Positions 2,532-61,821 of a DNA stretch of 64,000 nucleotides are shown piece after piece. Every line of letters begins with the position of its first letter. The stretch's first letter is position 1. The position numbers and the translations under genes were made by a program. Below the pieces are notes generated by a model. That model saw nothing but the letters and a program-made list of their open reading frames with translations. It did not search any database and was not told the DNA's origin. This DNA is from Cryobacterium frigoriphilum (GTDB lineage: Bacteria > Actinomycetota > Actinomycetes > Actinomycetales > Microbacteriaceae): contig NZ_SOHE01000016.1 of assembly GCF_004403305.1 (NCBI RefSeq), positions 62,001 through 126,000 on the forward strand, read 5' to 3'.

Positions 2532-3427
2532 CCGCGACCGGCTTTCTTGTCGGCCTCATCGGCGAGGGCATCACGGCCTCGCTGACCCCGCCGATGCACG
2601 AGCGTGAGGGGCGCCACCTGGGCTTCGACTACGACTACCGCACCCTCGACCTGCTTGAGCTCGACCGGTCGCCGCGCGACGTCGGTGCCCTGCTCGCCGA
2701 GTCCCGAGATGCAGGGTTCGCCGCACTCAACGTGACCCACCCCTGCAAGCAGCTCGTGATCCCGTTTCTCGATGAACTCGATCCCGCGGCCGAGCACATG
2801 GGTGCCGTCAATCTCGTGCTCATTCGGAACGGCCGCTTCATCGGGCACAACACCGACTGGACGGGATTCCGCTCCGCCCTGCTGGCCGGCCTTCCGGAGG
2901 CCGGCCGTGACCGCATCGTGCAGTTCGGGTCCGGCGGTGCCGGCTCCGCGACCGCCTACGCACTGCTCACCCTGGGCGTGCGTCGTCTCGCCATTGTCGA
3001 CGTGCTCCCCGAGCGTGCCCAGGCCCTCGTCGACCGCTACGCGCCCCTTTTCCCAGGCCAGGACGTGCTCGCGAGCACCCCGCAGATGCTCAGCGATGAC
3101 CTCGCCACCGCCGATGGTGTTGTGCACGCCACCCCGACCGGCATGAAGGAACACCCCGGCCTGCCCTTCGACGTGACAGCACTCGCCACAGCCGCCTGGG
3201 TCGCCGACATCGTGTACCGCCCGATCGACACCGAACTGCTCGCCACCGCTCGGAGGCTCGGCCATGAGGTGCTCGACGGAGGACGGATGGCGGTGGGCCA
3301 GGCCGCCGACAGCATCCGTTTGATCACGGGCACCGAACCCGATGCCGACCGCATGCGTGCCCACTTTCTGCAGCTGCTGGGTGACGATGCGGCTCTCGCA
3401 GCCGCCGCAGCGGGCGGGCGGGCCTGA
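2528..3427 (+). CDS. Quinate/shikimate dehydrogenase (AroE family)
   Basis: 299-aa NAD(P)-dependent dehydrogenase. The N-terminal substrate domain has [25 protein letters not shown] with the catalytic Lys, and HNTDWTGF with the catalytic Asp. The C-terminal Rossmann domain has [13 protein letters not shown]. The GEGI-S-TP-MHE form resembles the catabolic quinate/shikimate dehydrogenases (QsuD of Corynebacterium) more than biosynthetic AroE. It probably oxidises quinate to 3-dehydroquinate and shikimate to 3-dehydroshikimate. It overlaps aroQ by 4 bp and the next gene by 1 bp, so all three are coupled. A paralogue lies at 18337-19209. Confidence 0.9.
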
Positions 3428-13093: not shown

Positions 13094-14325
13094 CGAGTAC
13101 CAGAACCCCCACAGCCCTGCGCGAGGTCGTCATCTGTGAGCCGGTGCGCACCCCGATCGGCCGGTTCGGCGGCGCGTTCAAGACCGTCGCGCCGGCCGAT
13201 CTCGCCGCGGCGGTCATCGCCGCGCTCATCGAACGCACCGGACTCGACGGCGCCTTCGTCGATGACGTGATCTTCGGCCAGGCCTACCCCACGGCCGAAG
13301 CCGCCCCGGTCGCCCGCGTCGCCGCCCTCAACGCGGGGCTCCCGGTCACCGTCGGGGGCGTGCAGGTCGACCGCCGCTGCGGCAGCGGATTGCAGGCCGT
13401 GCTCGACGCCGCGATGCAGGTGCAGACCGGGGTCAGCGACCTAGCGATCGCCGGCGGCGTCGACGTGATGAGTCAGGCTCCCTTCTATACCGTGGATTCC
13501 CGCTGGGGTGTCGGCGGAACGGCCGGAATGCTGCTGCGTGATGCGCTCGGCCGTGGCCGCGAAACCGCCGGCGGTCGCCGTTTTCCGGTGCCGGGCGGCA
13601 TGCTCGAGACTGCCGAGAACCTGCGCCGCGACTACGGGCTCGGCCGTGAGGAGCAGGACCGCCTGGCGGTCGAATCGCAGCGCCGGGCGTTGGCATCCGT
13701 CGCCGCTGGCCTCTTCACCGACGAGATCGTGCCCGTCACCGTGCCCGGCCGCAAGGGCCCCACGATCGTCTCGGTCGACGAGACTCCGCGCGCGACGACG
13801 CTCGAGGCCCTCGCCGGCCTGAAGCCCATCCTCGGCAAAGCGGATGCCGCCGCGACCGTCACCGCCGGCAACGCGAGCGGGCAGAACGATGCGGCCGCGG
13901 CGTGCATCGTGACGACCCCGGAACGCGCCGCCGAACTCGGCCTCACCCCGCTCGTGCGCCTCGCGTCCTGGGCGCGCGCCGGCGTCGAGCCCAGCCGGAT
14001 GGGCCTCGGGCCGGTGCCGGCGACGAAGCTCGCGCTCGAACGCGCTGGCCTGAGCCTGGCGGACATCGACCTGATCGAGCTCAACGAGGCCTTCGCCGCG
14101 CAGGTGCTCGCCGTCAGCCGGGAATGGAACTTCACCGACGCGGATTGGGAACGCACCAACGTGAACGGTTCGGGCATCTCGCTCGGGCACCCGGTCGGAG
14201 CGACCGGCGCCCGTATTCTCGCGACCGCCGCGCGGCACCTGCAGCGCACAGACGGTCAGTTTTTGCTCGAGACCATGTGCATCGGCGGCGGCCAGGGCCT
14301 CGCCGCCATCTGGGAACGCGTCTAA
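13090..14325 (+). CDS. pcaF: Beta-ketoadipyl-CoA thiolase
   Basis: 411-aa thiolase ending the pathway by cleaving beta-ketoadipyl-CoA to succinyl-CoA and acetyl-CoA. Nucleophilic Cys97 lies in [11 protein letters not shown]; His in [10 protein letters not shown] (near residue 365) and Cys in CIGGGQG (near 396) complete the triad. NEAFAAQ is also present. It could act on other 3-ketoacyl-CoAs, but position as last gene of pcaHGBLIJF supports this role. A 13-bp-stem hairpin follows at 14392. Confidence 0.93.
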
Positions 14326-57893: not shown

Positions 57894-58061
57894 CTAGCGG
57901 CCGAACAGGCGGGAGAGGAAGGAGCCGGATGACGGGGCCTTCGGGTGGTTGCCGGCGCAGCGCTCATTGCGCGGCACGTTGCGCATGACCTGATCGACGT
58001 GCTGGCCGCAGCCGGCCCAGGTGGTCTTCTGGCAGGTCTTGCAGGTGACGGCTCTACACAT
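57894..58061 (-). CDS. 55-aa Cys-rich mini-protein
   Basis: Begins MCRAVTCKTCQKTTWAGCGQHVD and ends with RLFGR. The CxxC-x7-CGQHV core, followed by VMRNVP and a further Cys, is shared with the 42-aa protein at 61693. GAAAGG lies upstream of the ATG. It is the last gene of the minus-strand cluster, 51 bp after trxA. Four Cys plus a His could bind zinc or iron or carry persulfide. The family is unrecognised by me beyond a general memory of small actinobacterial hypothetical proteins with this pattern. Confidence 0.8.
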   Translation of the reverse strand: MCRAVTCKTCQKTTWAGCGQHVDQVMRNVPRNERCAGNHPKAPSSGSFLSRLFGR

Positions 58062-58112
58062 GGGGATTGCCTTTCGGTGACGCGGTTGTGGGGGAGAGGA
58101 AGAACAAGAAGA

Positions 58113-58472
58113 TCAGGCCTGAGCGGCGACCTTCGCGCGTACGTCATCCATGTTGAGGGCCTGCACGCCGGCGACGAGTTCCTCGAGGTTGGCGGCGTTG
58201 AGCGCGCCGGGCTGGGAGAACACCAGCATGCCGTCGCGAAAGGCCATCAGGGTCGGAATTGAGCGGATGCCGGCTGCCGACGACAGGCCCTGTTCGGCCT
58301 CGGTGTCCACCTTGGCGAACACGACGTCGGAGTGCTTCTCGGATGCGGCGCTGAAGGTGGGCGCGAACGAGCGGCAGGGGCTGCACCAGCCGGCCCAGAA
58401 ATCGACGAGCACGATGCCGCCACCGTTGATGCTCGCGCTGAAGGTGGATTCGGTGAGATCGATGGTTGCCAT
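58113..58472 (-). CDS. Thioredoxin with WCSPC active site
   Basis: 119-aa thioredoxin fold protein. The active site is W29-C30-S31-P32-C33, with Ser in place of the usual Gly; RSIPTLMAF carries the cis-Pro and VFAKVDTEAEQGL the typical beta strand. Its promoter region carries two CsoR/CstR-like boxes (58484-58520), so it is probably induced with the rest of the cluster. It is not the housekeeping TrxA and may reduce persulfides or the neighbouring mini-protein. Confidence 0.92.
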   Translation of the reverse strand: MATIDLTESTFSASINGGGIVLVDFWAGWCSPCRSFAPTFSAASEKHSDVVFAKVDTEAEQGLSSAAGIRSIPTLMAFRDGMLVFSQPGALNAANLEELVAGVQALNMDDVRAKVAAQA

Positions 58473-58483
58473 GCGATCAGTCT

Positions 58484-58499
58484 ATACCCCCAAGGGTAT
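58484..58499. promoter_or_regulatory. CsoR/CstR-like operator, box 1
   Basis: ATACCCCCAAGGGTAT: 6-bp arms ATACCC and GGGTAT with a 4-bp centre, 12 bp upstream of the thioredoxin ATG. Confidence 0.7.
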
Positions 58500-58504
58500 T
58501 AAAG

Positions 58505-58520
58505 ATACCCTGTGGGGTAC
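58505..58520. promoter_or_regulatory. CsoR/CstR-like operator, box 2
   Basis: ATACCCTGTGGGGTAC: same 6-4-6 layout with one arm mismatch. Its centre is 21 bp from that of box 1, about two helical turns, which suits cooperative binding. Confidence 0.65.
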
Positions 58521-58524
58521 CTGA

Positions 58525-59814
58525 TCAGGCTCGTGAGCGCGTGCTGGCTCGCAGCACTCCCCAGAGCACCACGACGCCGACGAGCACGAGGGCAGCGGCC
58601 CCCAGACCCGAATAGCCCAGCACCACCAGGACCGGACCGGCCAGTGCCCCGCCCAGTGCCCCGGCGGCATTCATCGAGAGGTCGGAGAAGCCTTGCAGCG
58701 AGGAGCGGTCTTCGATCTCGACCGCCTCCGAGATGAGCGCCGAGCCGGCCACGACGGATGCCGACCAGCCCAGTCCCAGAAAAATCAGGCTGACGGTCAG
58801 GATGCCCTGCGATCCGTCGCCGAGCCACGCGGTCAGCAGGGCCACGACGAGCAGACCCTGGCCGCCGAGAATGACCGGCAGTCGGCCGAAGCGGTCGGAG
58901 AGCCAGCCGAAGACGGGCGACAGGGCGTACATTCCGGCCACGTGCAGGCTGATGGTGAGGCCCACCACCGTGAGGGTCGCGCCGTGGTCGCGCAGGTGCA
59001 CGGGTGCCATCGACATGAGGGCGACCATGGTCATGTGGCTGAGCGCGACCGTGGCCACGGCAAACCGGGCCAGGGCATTGCCGCGCAGAATCTTCAACCC
59101 GCCGTGGGCGCGGCGGGCACCGACCTGTCCGGCCCGGGCGGCGAGGGCGGTCAGCAGGGGATCTGGCCGCAGCCCGATCGAGTAGACGACGGCCGCGGCG
59201 ATCGTGGCTGCGAGCGAAAAGGCGAACGCGCCGGTCATGGCGGGCAGTCCGAGCGCGGCGCCGAGGGCCTCGCCGGGGCCGAACAGGTTCGGCCCGAGCA
59301 CGGCGCCGATGGTCGTGGACCAGACGACGAGGGACAGGTCCCTGGCCCGGAACCGGGTGCTGGCCAGGTCGGTCGCGGCGAATCGGGCCTGCAGGTTGGC
59401 GGCCGACCCGGCGCCGAGCAGCATGAGGGCGAGCAGCAAGAGCGGAAAGACGCCGACCGCGGCGGCGAAAATCGCCAGCACCGCGCCGGTGCCGGCGATG
59501 AGCGACCCGGTGGCCAGGGAGATGCGTCGACCCCGAGCCTGGGCGAGCCGGGCGAGCGGAACGGCCACGACTGCCGCCCCGAGCGTGCTCATCGTGGCGG
59601 CCATGCCCGACCACGCGCTTGACCCCGAGAGGTCCGCCGCGAGCAGTGCCCCGAGCGACAGGGTCGCGCCCATGCCGATGCCGCCGAGAATCTGCCCGGC
59701 GACGAGCACCCGCACGACCCGCTTCTGCAGGGCGGAGTGCGCGTCAGCGTCGCGGGCGGAGGGCGACTCGGGGGCGGTCGATTCGGGGGCGACGGATGCC
59801 GCATCCGTCGTCAT
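58525..59814 (-). CDS. MFS transporter of the sulfur/redox cluster
   Basis: 429-aa, 12-helix transporter. N-terminal half: VRVLVAGQILGGIGMGATLSLGALLAADL, ARLAQARGRRISLATG (motif A-like); C-terminal half: SPVFGWLSDRFGRLPVILGG and LGLGWSASVVAGSALISEAV. I prefer ATG 59814 with GAGG upstream; a GTG at 59835 would add seven residues. Substrate unknown; the cluster suggests export of a sulfur compound or thiol conjugate. Confidence 0.86.
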   Translation of the reverse strand: MTTDAASVAPESTAPESPSARDADAHSALQKRVVRVLVAGQILGGIGMGATLSLGALLAADLSGSSAWSGMAATMSTLGAAVVAVPLARLAQARGRRISLATGSLIAGTGAVLAIFAAAVGVFPLLLLALMLLGAGSAANLQARFAATDLASTRFRARDLSLVVWSTTIGAVLGPNLFGPGEALGAALGLPAMTGAFAFSLAATIAAAVVYSIGLRPDPLLTALAARAGQVGARRAHGGLKILRGNALARFAVATVALSHMTMVALMSMAPVHLRDHGATLTVVGLTISLHVAGMYALSPVFGWLSDRFGRLPVILGGQGLLVVALLTAWLGDGSQGILTVSLIFLGLGWSASVVAGSALISEAVEIEDRSSLQGFSDLSMNAAGALGGALAGPVLVVLGYSGLGAAALVLVGVVVLWGVLRASTRSRA

Positions 59815-59875
59815 CGCGGGCCTCGGGTCACGCACGACAAGCGAACGGTGAACATGGTGTCTCCAACCCGTGGTG

Positions 59876-60019
59876 CTAGTGGCTGCTCTTGGCGAGCCGG
59901 TACATGGTGTAATTCAGCATCATAAAGTGCAGCAGCTGCACTCCGAGATTACTGCGTCGGGCGAGCTCGATGGTGCCCGGAAGCGGGGCTGCGTCGATAC
60001 GGTTTTGGGTGTCATCCAT
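59876..60019 (-). CDS. 47-aa protein in the SQR operon
   Basis: Small ORF with GGAG 7 bp before its ATG. Sequence begins MDDTQNRIDAAPLPGTIELA and ends with an amphipathic/hydrophobic stretch GVQLLHFMMLNYTMYRLAKS. It may associate with the membrane or with the SQR protein, whose gene is 61 bp upstream. No known family recognised; conservation next to SQR homologues would confirm it. Confidence 0.65.
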   Translation of the reverse strand: MDDTQNRIDAAPLPGTIELARRSNLGVQLLHFMMLNYTMYRLAKSSH

Positions 60020-60080
60020 GGTGGTCTCCGAGCGTTGAATGGGTGGGACAAAGGGGTGGAGCACGGGGGTGTGTGCTGGT

Positions 60081-61544
60081 CTATTCGGGGATCAGGTACC
60101 AGAACGGGTATGCCTTGGCCTTGTAGAGGAACATGGTGTGCAGCACGCGCTTGACCCAGTGCGCGGCCAGGCCGATCTCGCCGGTCGTGGTGCGGGGGTC
60201 GCGCCCGTTGGTATCGGGGTAGCGGGCGTTGTCCGGCACGATGGGCGACATCGACATGGCGGCGGCGGTGCCGTGGCGCAGGCCGGTGCCGGTCGACGCG
60301 ATGCAGGCGGCGGCCATCTCGCCCATCGATGCGTGGTGCGTCGGGGTGAGGGCGCCCTTCAGAATCATGTCGGCGATCGTCATGGCGACGACCTTTCCCA
60401 TCGCGCCCGAGGGCATACCGGTGCGCGGCGGGGCGGGTGCCACGGCGAGGCCGCCCGGCGTCGCGTAGGGGCGCGAGATGGCGTGCGGCGGCGCAAAGGC
60501 GATTCCGACGCCGAACAGGTTCGCGTAGCTCGGATTCTGGTACGTCTTCGGCCAATCCTGAGCGGTCCACTCGTCAAAGGGCTTGGCCGTGTAGTCGGCG
60601 TCAACGCGCATGAAACCGCTCGGGGCGAAGATGGTGTCGGTGATCTCGACGCCATCGCGGTCGTAGGCGGTCAGGCCCACTCCGCGAAACGGCGGCAGCA
60701 GCATGGCGAAGTCGAACTTCTGGGCGTTCTCGGTGCCGTCGATCTGCGTGTAGTTGATGACGCCGGGATCGATCCGGGTCACCGCAGCCTGCGTGATGGC
60801 CTTCATTTTGCGCTCCCGAAACAGCGATTCCATCCAGGCCTCGCTCGTGACGCGCGCCCCACCCGAGCTGAAGGTCATGCCGCCGACGCCGAAGTCACCG
60901 AGTTCGTGTTCGTTGGTGAGGTAGATGACCTCGGCCTTGTCGCGCACGCCGGCCTCCCGCAGTTGCTGCTCCACGTTGAAGGCGTACTCGAACGCCGCGC
61001 CCTCACACGTGCAGGTGCCGTGACCGACGCCCACGACGAGGGTCTGCGGGCTGCCCGATTTCAGGTTGGTGATGACCTCGGCCAGGCGTTTGGCCGCCCC
61101 AACGGCGTGGCTCGGGGTGCAGACCGAGACCGTGTTGCCGCCATCCGGCCCGAGGCCGGGCGTTGCGGCGAAGTTTAGCTGGGGGCCGGTCGCGTTGATC
61201 AGGTAGTCGTAGCCGAGGCGCACTGTCTTGCCGACGCGGGTCGGGTCGGTGTAGACGATCTCCACCTGTCCGCGCGGGCTGTTGAGGTCTCCCTCGGGGT
61301 ACAGCGCCACGGCCTTGGCCTGATGAAACGTGATTTTCTTGCGGCGGTAGATGGGGGCGAGGGGAAAGACCACCTTGTCGGCGGTCATCTTGCCGACCCC
61401 AACCCAGATGTTCGACGGAATCCAGTTCCACTTCGAGCCCGGCGAGACCACGATCACCTCGTGACTGCGGCCCAAACGCTTCTTCAGATACAGGGCCGCG
61501 GTGTGGCCGGATACCCCTGCTCCCAATACGACGACGCGTGCCAT
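60081..61544 (-). CDS. Sulfide:quinone oxidoreductase-like flavoprotein
   Basis: 487-aa pyridine-nucleotide-disulfide family enzyme: FAD motif VVVLGAGVSGHTAALYL, SKWNWIPSNIWVGVGKM, DYLINATGPQL, second FAD region near NLFGVGIAF. Cysteines at 142, 178, 180 and 414 are candidates for the redox Cys of SQR. The C-terminal tail KRVLHTMFLYKAKAYPFWYLIP is the amphipathic membrane-binding end of SQRs. It would oxidise sulfide to persulfide or polysulfide and pass electrons to menaquinone. AGAGG precedes the ATG. Confidence 0.87.
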   Translation of the reverse strand: MARVVVLGAGVSGHTAALYLKKRLGRSHEVIVVSPGSKWNWIPSNIWVGVGKMTADKVVFPLAPIYRRKKITFHQAKAVALYPEGDLNSPRGQVEIVYTDPTRVGKTVRLGYDYLINATGPQLNFAATPGLGPDGGNTVSVCTPSHAVGAAKRLAEVITNLKSGSPQTLVVGVGHGTCTCEGAAFEYAFNVEQQLREAGVRDKAEVIYLTNEHELGDFGVGGMTFSSGGARVTSEAWMESLFRERKMKAITQAAVTRIDPGVINYTQIDGTENAQKFDFAMLLPPFRGVGLTAYDRDGVEITDTIFAPSGFMRVDADYTAKPFDEWTAQDWPKTYQNPSYANLFGVGIAFAPPHAISRPYATPGGLAVAPAPPRTGMPSGAMGKVVAMTIADMILKGALTPTHHASMGEMAAACIASTGTGLRHGTAAAMSMSPIVPDNARYPDTNGRDPRTTTGEIGLAAHWVKRVLHTMFLYKAKAYPFWYLIPE

Positions 61545-61605
61545 GTCAACCTCTTATCCGGCAATTGCGACCGTGCAACTGCGCTCTCGAGCCGACCATA
61601 CTCCT

Positions 61606-61621
61606 ATACCCAATGGGGTAT
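61606..61621. promoter_or_regulatory. CsoR/CstR-like operator, box 3
   Basis: ATACCCAATGGGGTAT: perfect 6-bp arms and 4-bp centre, 62 bp upstream of the SQR ATG in the divergent interval. Confidence 0.7.
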
Positions 61622-61648
61622 CTACCACACCGGATGCCGATTTCTGAT

Positions 61649-61664
61649 ATACCTCAGAGGGTAT
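61649..61664. promoter_or_regulatory. CsoR/CstR-like operator, box 4
   Basis: ATACCTCAGAGGGTAT: one arm mismatch (T for C). It lies 29 bp before the 42-aa protein start, so it probably controls that gene. Confidence 0.65.
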
Positions 61665-61692
61665 CCAATTCACGAGACAAACGGGAGTCACT

Positions 61693-61821
61693 ATGTGTAG
61701 TCCAATTCGGTGCAGCAACTGCGGAAAAGTCACCTGGACCGGGTGCGGCCAGCACGTCGAGGACGTCATGGCGGACTTCACGGCCGACCAGCAGTGCGCC
61801 TGCGCGGTGCCCGGCCGGTAG
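61693..61821 (+). CDS. 42-aa Cys-rich mini-protein
   Basis: MCSPIRCSNCGKVTWTGCGQ then HVEDVM and a C-terminal CAC. GGGAG precedes the ATG by 6 bp. It shares the CxxCxKxTWxGCGQHV core with the 55-aa protein at 57894 and stands divergently from SQR under the same type of operator. Six Cys in 42 residues suggest metal or persulfide chemistry. Too short for most gene finders. Confidence 0.8.
   Translation: MCSPIRCSNCGKVTWTGCGQHVEDVMADFTADQQCACAVPGR

Follow-up and report, generated by a model that had tools for sequence, protein, structure and literature searches.

A cluster of six genes in Cryobacterium frigoriphilum, encoding an SQR-like flavoprotein, a major facilitator superfamily (MFS) transporter, a thioredoxin (Trx) and three microproteins, was found to carry four boxes related to the palindrome ATACCC-N4-GGGTAT, and very probably represents an outlying part of the regulon of CstR, the persulfide-sensing type of CsoR-family repressor. 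The cluster occupies positions 57894..61821 of a 64,000-nucleotide stretch (hereafter the window), which corresponds to C85:62001-126000, that is, to contig C85 within a 4.38-Mb assembly of 93 contigs. Regulation tied to sulfide handling is well supported, while we only infer what the microproteins do. All six open reading frames (ORFs) of the original prediction, five on the minus strand and one divergent, were present, and their layout indicated three units: the gene for a 42-amino-acid (aa) Cys microprotein on the plus strand, an SQR-47 aa-MFS unit on the minus strand, and a Trx-55 aa unit, also on the minus strand, which has its own box pair in the gap separating the Trx start from the MFS stop. 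The two Cys microproteins, of 42 and 55 aa, were recognized as paralogues, a relation that had been missed in the prediction. The features are as follows.

57894..58061, minus strand: 55-aa Cys microprotein, second gene of the Trx unit, MC-x4-C-x2-C ... TWxGCGxHV ... C
58113..58472, minus strand: thioredoxin with a WCSPC active site (PF00085, 6.8e-23)
58484..58499: predicted CstR-type 16-bp operator, exact, ATACCCCCAAGGGTAT; on the minus strand it continues into TATAGACT
58505..58520: predicted CstR-type operator, the second in the Trx unit, with one mismatch (...GGGTAC)
58525..59835, minus strand: MFS transporter, last gene of the SQR unit (PF07690, MFS_1, 1.1e-27); an ATG start is possible at 59815
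59876..60019, minus strand: 47-aa SQR-companion microprotein; SQR is followed by a comparable small ORF in 9/9 other loci examined
60081..61544, minus strand: SQR-like flavoprotein (PF07992, 8.3e-8; Acidithiobacillus SQR 3sz0, 1.2e-34)
61606..61621: predicted CstR-type 16-bp operator, exact, ahead of SQR, ATACCCAATGGGGTAT
61649..61664: predicted CstR-type operator, one mismatch (ATACCT...), 28 bp ahead of the 42-aa gene
61693..61821, plus strand: 42-aa Cys microprotein, a short form that lacks the C-terminal GFFxRLFGR-like tail

The Trx, MFS and SQR-like assignments made beforehand were confirmed by the matches given above. The common palindrome proposed for four sites was found at all of them, but only two copies were exact, the other two each departing by one mismatch; in every copy the centre was N4. 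With up to 2 mismatches allowed, 7 matches occurred in the window against a mean of 0.67 in shuffled sequence, and 0/100 shuffles reached 7. The absence of a repressor, a copper ATPase or a copper chaperone from the window was likewise borne out, in that a phmmer search (E <= 1e-5) of the window ORFs with the genome's own CsoR, CstR, CopA and CopZ proteins gave 0 matches.

Candidate repressors were located elsewhere in the genome, as the prediction had anticipated. A search with PF02583 yielded four CsoR-family genes. Two of the encoded proteins were of the copper type (Cys-His-Cys), with a His four residues before the second Cys, and the alignment placed the other two in the CstR type, with two Cys residues 29 apart and without a His at that position. 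The latter are encoded at C47:875-1165 and C85:230954-231289 and matched PF02583 above its cut-off (6.9e-20 and 2.2e-22, respectively). The copper-type proteins scored 134 and 153 bits against the RicR model, whose cut-off is 175, and the CstR-type proteins 27 and 29. Neighbours of the two CstR-type genes include genes for sulfurtransferases, PDO, CoA-disulfide reductase (CoADR) and sulfite exporters. The best NCBIfam model for the two CstR-type proteins was NF008464 (45 and 39 bits), which would be in line with formaldehyde regulation of the FrmR type; these scores were, however, far under the cut-off of 133, the second Cys follows 29 residues on in both proteins, and the neighbours encode sulfurtransferases, PDO and TauE, not formaldehyde functions, all of which renders FrmR-type control very improbable.

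The preference of the original prediction for persulfide over copper had been argued from the lack of a copper ATPase nearby. By itself this argument is weak, because the operators of the copper CsoR of Streptomyces lividans are nearly identical to the present boxes (PMC3902906 Table 1). If the boxes were copper CsoR operators, the Cys-rich microproteins could be Cu(I)-induced, copper-binding proteins of a metallothionein-like kind, and the two copper-type CsoR proteins of the genome, together with one N4 box located in a copper cluster, would fit such a view. Since the S. lividans operators share the half-sites TAC/GTA with G-tracts, the box alone does not decide between copper and sulfur, and boxes were therefore counted by the length of their centre at copper-type and CstR-type loci. 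The three operators in the S. lividans table, whose targets are copZA and csoR, have by our own count a 5-bp centre, not one of 4 bp (TAC-X9-GTA in the paper's notation) (PMC3902906).

For this count, loci around the best matches to the two types of C. frigoriphilum protein were collected from 148 genomes of the class, our own genome contributing one locus to each set, and boxes were scored at up to one mismatch. In the first sets, copper-type loci carried N5 boxes in 21/30 cases and N4 in 0/30, while CstR-type loci carried N4 in 24/30 and N5 in 0/30. Second sets of 20 loci, drawn from lower-ranked matches, gave N5 in 12/20 and N4 in 0/20 at copper-type loci, versus N4 in 17/20 and N5 in 0/20 at CstR-type loci; of the 20 CstR loci in this second set, four overlap with stretches sampled earlier, and leaving them out gave N4 in 14/16 and N5 in 0/16. 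Pooled, loci of His-type CsoR showed the 17-bp N5 form in 33/50 and N4 in 0/50, and CstR loci the 16-bp N4 form in 41/50 and N5 in 0/50, the residue four before the second Cys being His in 50/50 copper-type versus 0/50 CstR-type proteins. Within the C. frigoriphilum genome, all seven N5 sites found at up to one mismatch lie at copA/copZ genes, and this genome-wide scan placed none in the window. With every window box of the N4 form and the genome's own copA/copZ operons provided with N5 sites, control of the window genes by copper CsoR appears improbable. At the level of predicted operators, the N4/N5 split supplies the copper-versus-sulfur discrimination that the earlier argument lacked and supports its choice of persulfide. 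It suggests that the persulfide and copper regulons of the CsoR family are separated by one base pair at the middle of the operator. The related repressor TTHA1953 of Thermus thermophilus bound about 10- to 15-fold more weakly when one spacer base was added or removed (PMC10318464).

Copper- and persulfide-sensing CsoR-family repressors coexist in one cell here, with almost identical operators. The spacing split would allow actinobacterial CsoR-type boxes to be assigned to copper or sulfur stress, and cross-talk between the paralogues becomes directly testable by one-base operator changes. At C85:225836-231289 (L026), a copper csoR-copZA group with an N5 box stands beside a CoADR-rhodanese-cstR group with an N4 box, a layout that constitutes a natural test bed for such cross-talk. 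The two sites (C85:226201, N5, copZA; C85:228866, N4, CoADR) are less than 3 kb apart, so wider flanks would break the N4 zero of the copper locus in our own genome.

The N4 boxes were not scattered at random over the genome; random placement would have spoken against the prediction. Scanning for ATACCC-N4-GGGTAT at up to one mismatch located 17 sites, of which 9 were exact, compared with 3 sites of the reversed pattern; 15/17 were intergenic, as judged against crude gene calls, the remaining two (C67:58305 and C83:23148) lying inside predicted genes. Most precede sulfur and redox genes, the targets including a PDO-rhodanese/rhodanese/TauE group, CoADR-rhodanese, rhodanese lipoproteins, a 1-Cys peroxiredoxin and a DUF4395 protein, with ten proteins beside the boxes named by Pfam.

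A CstR regulon is itself of a known kind. The ScCsoR sulfane-sulfur circuit of Streptomyces coelicolor comprises sco0618 (pdo), sco0620 (csoR), sco0621 (rhodanese) and tauE, and its repressor, which likewise has two Cys residues 29 apart (Cys37 and Cys66), binds the 16-bp ATACCn6GGTAT and is released by polysulfide (PMC7533328). The layout on contig C47, with PDO-rhodanese, rhodanese and TauE as targets, repeats this circuit. As far as the accessible account goes, the S. coelicolor circuit is made up of four genes, and neither a microprotein nor SQR or Trx is mentioned (PMC7533328). In C. frigoriphilum, by comparison, there are boxes at five additional sites that are clear and at some that are doubtful, there are two CstR copies, and the window group itself lacks PDO and a repressor gene. 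CstR of Staphylococcus aureus represses cstA, cstB and sqr, likewise a sulfide oxidation system, but from a single operon, and the accessible text mentions no relative of either microprotein (PMC5480029). TTHA1953 is also a CsoR-family repressor of sulfur genes, with a different 20-bp site and targets of the Sox pathway (PMC10318464). A literature search that covered few subscription papers found neither the N4/N5 rule nor either microprotein family as a regulon member; both families are apparently undescribed, and we claim no priority for them or for the rule. The two families are tangible candidates for components still lacking from the picture of persulfide homeostasis.

By analogy with the S. 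coelicolor and S. aureus systems, CstR repression and its release by persulfide or polysulfide are well founded. The three window units, carrying one or two 16-bp operators beside their promoters, would be bound in trans by the CstR-type repressor encoded on C47, C85 or both, and a rise in sulfide or persulfide would modify the two CstR cysteines so that the repressor lets go. SQR would then oxidize sulfide with quinone, and Trx, which presumably reduces persulfide, would pass on or remove sulfane sulfur together with the rhodaneses, PDO and CoADR encoded elsewhere in the regulon. TauE, also encoded elsewhere in the regulon, would export sulfite, the MFS protein might export some compound, and the 47-aa protein might help SQR.

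To characterize the 42/55-aa family, genome contigs were scanned with two peptide patterns, and the best 80 of at least 507 relatives were retained. Among 296 genomes drawn evenly from the phylum, 45 gave matches, our own included; with no more than 22 first-look candidates scored in each genome, this number may be too low. Together the two surveys yielded 130 examples, comprising the 80 relatives and 50 phylum-sample matches from 49 loci. Invariant in all of them were C2, C7, C10, G17, C18, G19, H21 and C35, including the five cysteines C2, C7, C10, C18 and C35; the search patterns for the 80 had included residues around 12-19 or 20-26, and not C2, C7, C10 or C35. Substitutions between similar copies numbered 13584 at third codon positions versus 5924 and 5098 at the others (the pairs not being independent), an excess that fits selection on the microprotein. 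Sixty-four members matched only scattered Pfam families (best E 0.015, none above cut-off), and four members had no NCBIfam match at 0.001.

The association of this family with the N4 box was pronounced. The C. frigoriphilum genome has four copies, each, by its position, in a unit with an N4 box, and a paralogue of the window Trx (L021:4179-4541, contig C47) adjoins one of those outside the window. An exact box was present at -300..+2 of 46/80 and 15/50 microprotein genes (one of the 80 with only 72 nt upstream) and anywhere in the locus of 64/80 and 27/50. In contrast, none of 59 permuted palindromes, whose half-sites are built from identical letters, was found at more than one microprotein locus. 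Although the half-site is short and GC-rich, this permuted-palindrome control refuted chance palindromes in GC-rich promoters, to which we attach a practically negligible probability. A CsoR-family gene was found in 40/80 and 24/50 of the stretches, and the copper His in 0/67 of their CsoR-family ORFs, at least one of which is spurious. By best phmmer match, the neighbours of the 80 encode CoADR-rhodanese (33), PDO-rhodanese (23), TauE (15) and Trx (13), and those of the 50 phylum matches CoADR (9), TauE (8), PDO (7) and Trx (5). This company, which includes CstR, further argues against copper operators, CopA-like neighbours being confined to 4/80 and 2/50.

An AlphaFold2 model of the 55-aa protein, built from 64 sequences, had a mean predicted local distance difference test (pLDDT) score of 79, with 87-91 over residues 1-30 in blocks of ten, and contained strands at 3-6 and 13-16 and a short helix at 22-25. 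The model resembles a CxxC knuckle in which a helix begins at CxxH. The Cys microprotein would most likely be a small zinc-knuckle protein, in which C7-x2-C10 pairs with C18-x2-H21, and C2 and C35 might accept or pass on sulfane sulfur; this acceptor role is put forward with less than even confidence. It is also quite possible, though short of probable, that the microprotein is CstR-controlled and yet serves as a zinc adaptor or regulator, such as a zinc-release switch or a Trx or PDO chaperone, instead of a sulfur carrier. Consistent with that alternative are the C-x2-C-x7-C-x2-H arrangement in 130/130 (partly within the search patterns), the predicted beta-hairpin and short helix with pLDDT of about 90 over residues 1-30, the GFFxRLFGR-like tail seen by eye in most long forms, and the zinc limitation caused by sulfide in S. 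aureus (PMC5480029); the tail is, however, missing from the 42-aa form and the C51 copy.

The pieces can be assembled into a tentative joint picture that we hold at well below even probability: a dedicated five-Cys actinobacterial microprotein of about 40-60 residues, often unannotated, would belong to the regular equipment of persulfide defence and would accept sulfane sulfur, clamped by zinc, in cooperation with Trx, PDO or CoADR; one operator-centre base pair (N4 versus N5) would keep the persulfide and copper circuits apart; and the second microprotein would be the obligate partner of a distinct SQR type.

Cys microproteins were also seen in viral and plasmid collections. A contig from a viral collection (L313; IMGVR_UViG_2915157839_000001, 3001-3183) encodes one at the contig end, preceded at a distance of 80 nt by an exact N4 box; the stretch possibly derives from the host, next to a prophage. 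In addition, 78 plasmid records carry the microprotein, and in 32 of 40 listed no feature lies under the match, the gene table being incomplete. By their names, the organisms of the listed records are all actinobacterial.

The SQR-like protein aligned to Acidithiobacillus SQR 3sz0 over residues 2-341 only. This N-terminal part and two Cys regions correspond, while the window protein is longer (487 versus 437 aa), contains a CTCEGAAFEY motif and has a small companion gene attached. Matches at 1e-60 or better were found in 9/296 class genomes, our own included, and the only four cysteines (C142, C178, C180 and C414) were kept in 9/9. C142 and C180 align with Cys residues of 3sz0; C414 lies outside the alignment, and its correspondence to the third SQR Cys was judged by eye. 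A box at up to one mismatch was present in the fetched locus of 7/8 relatives, and in 8/8 an ORF of 47-63 aa begins no more than about 55 nt away from the end of SQR, with the approximate pattern APLPS..LRxRxN...Q..RF...N..M....GHH; three of these eight ORFs served as queries, and the other five were matches at E <= 1e-3. A tenth SQR from the phylum sample (L169) also has the companion ORF downstream, bringing the count to 10/10 loci. In one genome (L208), two microprotein copies, Trx, SQR, the companion, CstR and CoADR occur together with four boxes. The 47-aa window protein had no match at 0.001 in Pfam or NCBIfam, nor had one relative in NCBIfam. MFS relatives adjoin boxes in loci L051 and L204.

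The promoter geometry was compatible with repression at these boxes. An exact promoter box was present at 61 microprotein genes, and in seven of them (L164, L166, L175, L179, L187, L191 and L192) it lies at -14, where its final AT coincides with the first two letters of the start codon ATG. All 7/7 read ATACCCT, against a T at that position in 3/54 others (p = 2.8e-7, a kind of p-value that exaggerates the strength of the result, since related genomes are not independent). The result is a TACCCT (TANNNT) hexamer where a leaderless -10 would sit, and the box may double as the -10 element of a presumed leaderless mRNA. Of the other 54 boxes, 35 run into TATxxT, versus 16% background. Both patterns would fit repression by covering of the -10 region. 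Downstream of the 58484 box on the minus strand, TAGACT ends 6 nt ahead of the Trx ATG and could possibly be the -10 of a leaderless start.

Several observations weigh against assigning the window genes to a CstR regulon with a fixed N4 operator. No -10 is evident alongside the window boxes of SQR and the 42-aa gene. In the phylum sample, 18/49 microprotein loci lacked an N4 box at up to one mismatch, 26/50 matches lacked a CsoR-family gene in the fetched stretch, and the co-occurrence of microprotein and CstR per genome was weak (12/13 versus 10/18, p = 0.045, among 31 genomes present in both match lists, compiled by hand). The AlphaFold model gave no significant match to a PDB chain, and zinc binding is therefore a reading of the residue pattern. 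The centre length also drifts, some CstR-side loci having N3 in place of N4 boxes: exact 15-bp N3 boxes stand beside a microprotein or CoADR/CstR in L043, L064, L065, L078 and L088, all titled Agromyces, an apparent lineage-specific shift in operator spacing, and an N3 box was also seen in one locus of each CstR set and one of the phylum sample. Two first-set CstR loci had an N2 match with a mismatch, and one N5 box lies 3 kb from a microprotein (L108). Finally, one exact N4 box (C35:9487) sits within a copper cluster whose copZ gene is preceded by three N5 boxes (13256-13332); the N4 box would mark either a gene of that cluster under CstR control or a departure from the spacing rule.

The N4 sites outside the window, apart from the two inside predicted genes, are as follows.

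C47:804: ahead of a CstR-type gene
C47:4137 and 4158: ahead of the PDO-rhodanese/rhodanese/TauE group and a divergent Trx
C47:4621 and C51:36997: each ahead of a microprotein
C47:7321: one mismatch, between predicted genes
C85:228866: ahead of the CoADR-rhodanese/rhodanese/CstR operon
C85:53504: exact, ahead of a small protein and a rhodanese lipoprotein
C59:144223: ahead of a 1-Cys peroxiredoxin
C35:9487-9502 (L020): exact, upstream of an 84-aa YHS-domain protein inside the copper cluster
C85:32308 (L029:6309): one mismatch, directly upstream of the DUF4395 gene

Behind the exact box at C85:53504, the stretch C85:53582-54555 (L024:7583-8556) encodes a 202-aa protein with no function assigned and the rhodanese lipoprotein. 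A second rhodanese lipoprotein, on C51, adjoins a microprotein copy. The DUF4395 protein may belong to the persulfide regulon as well.

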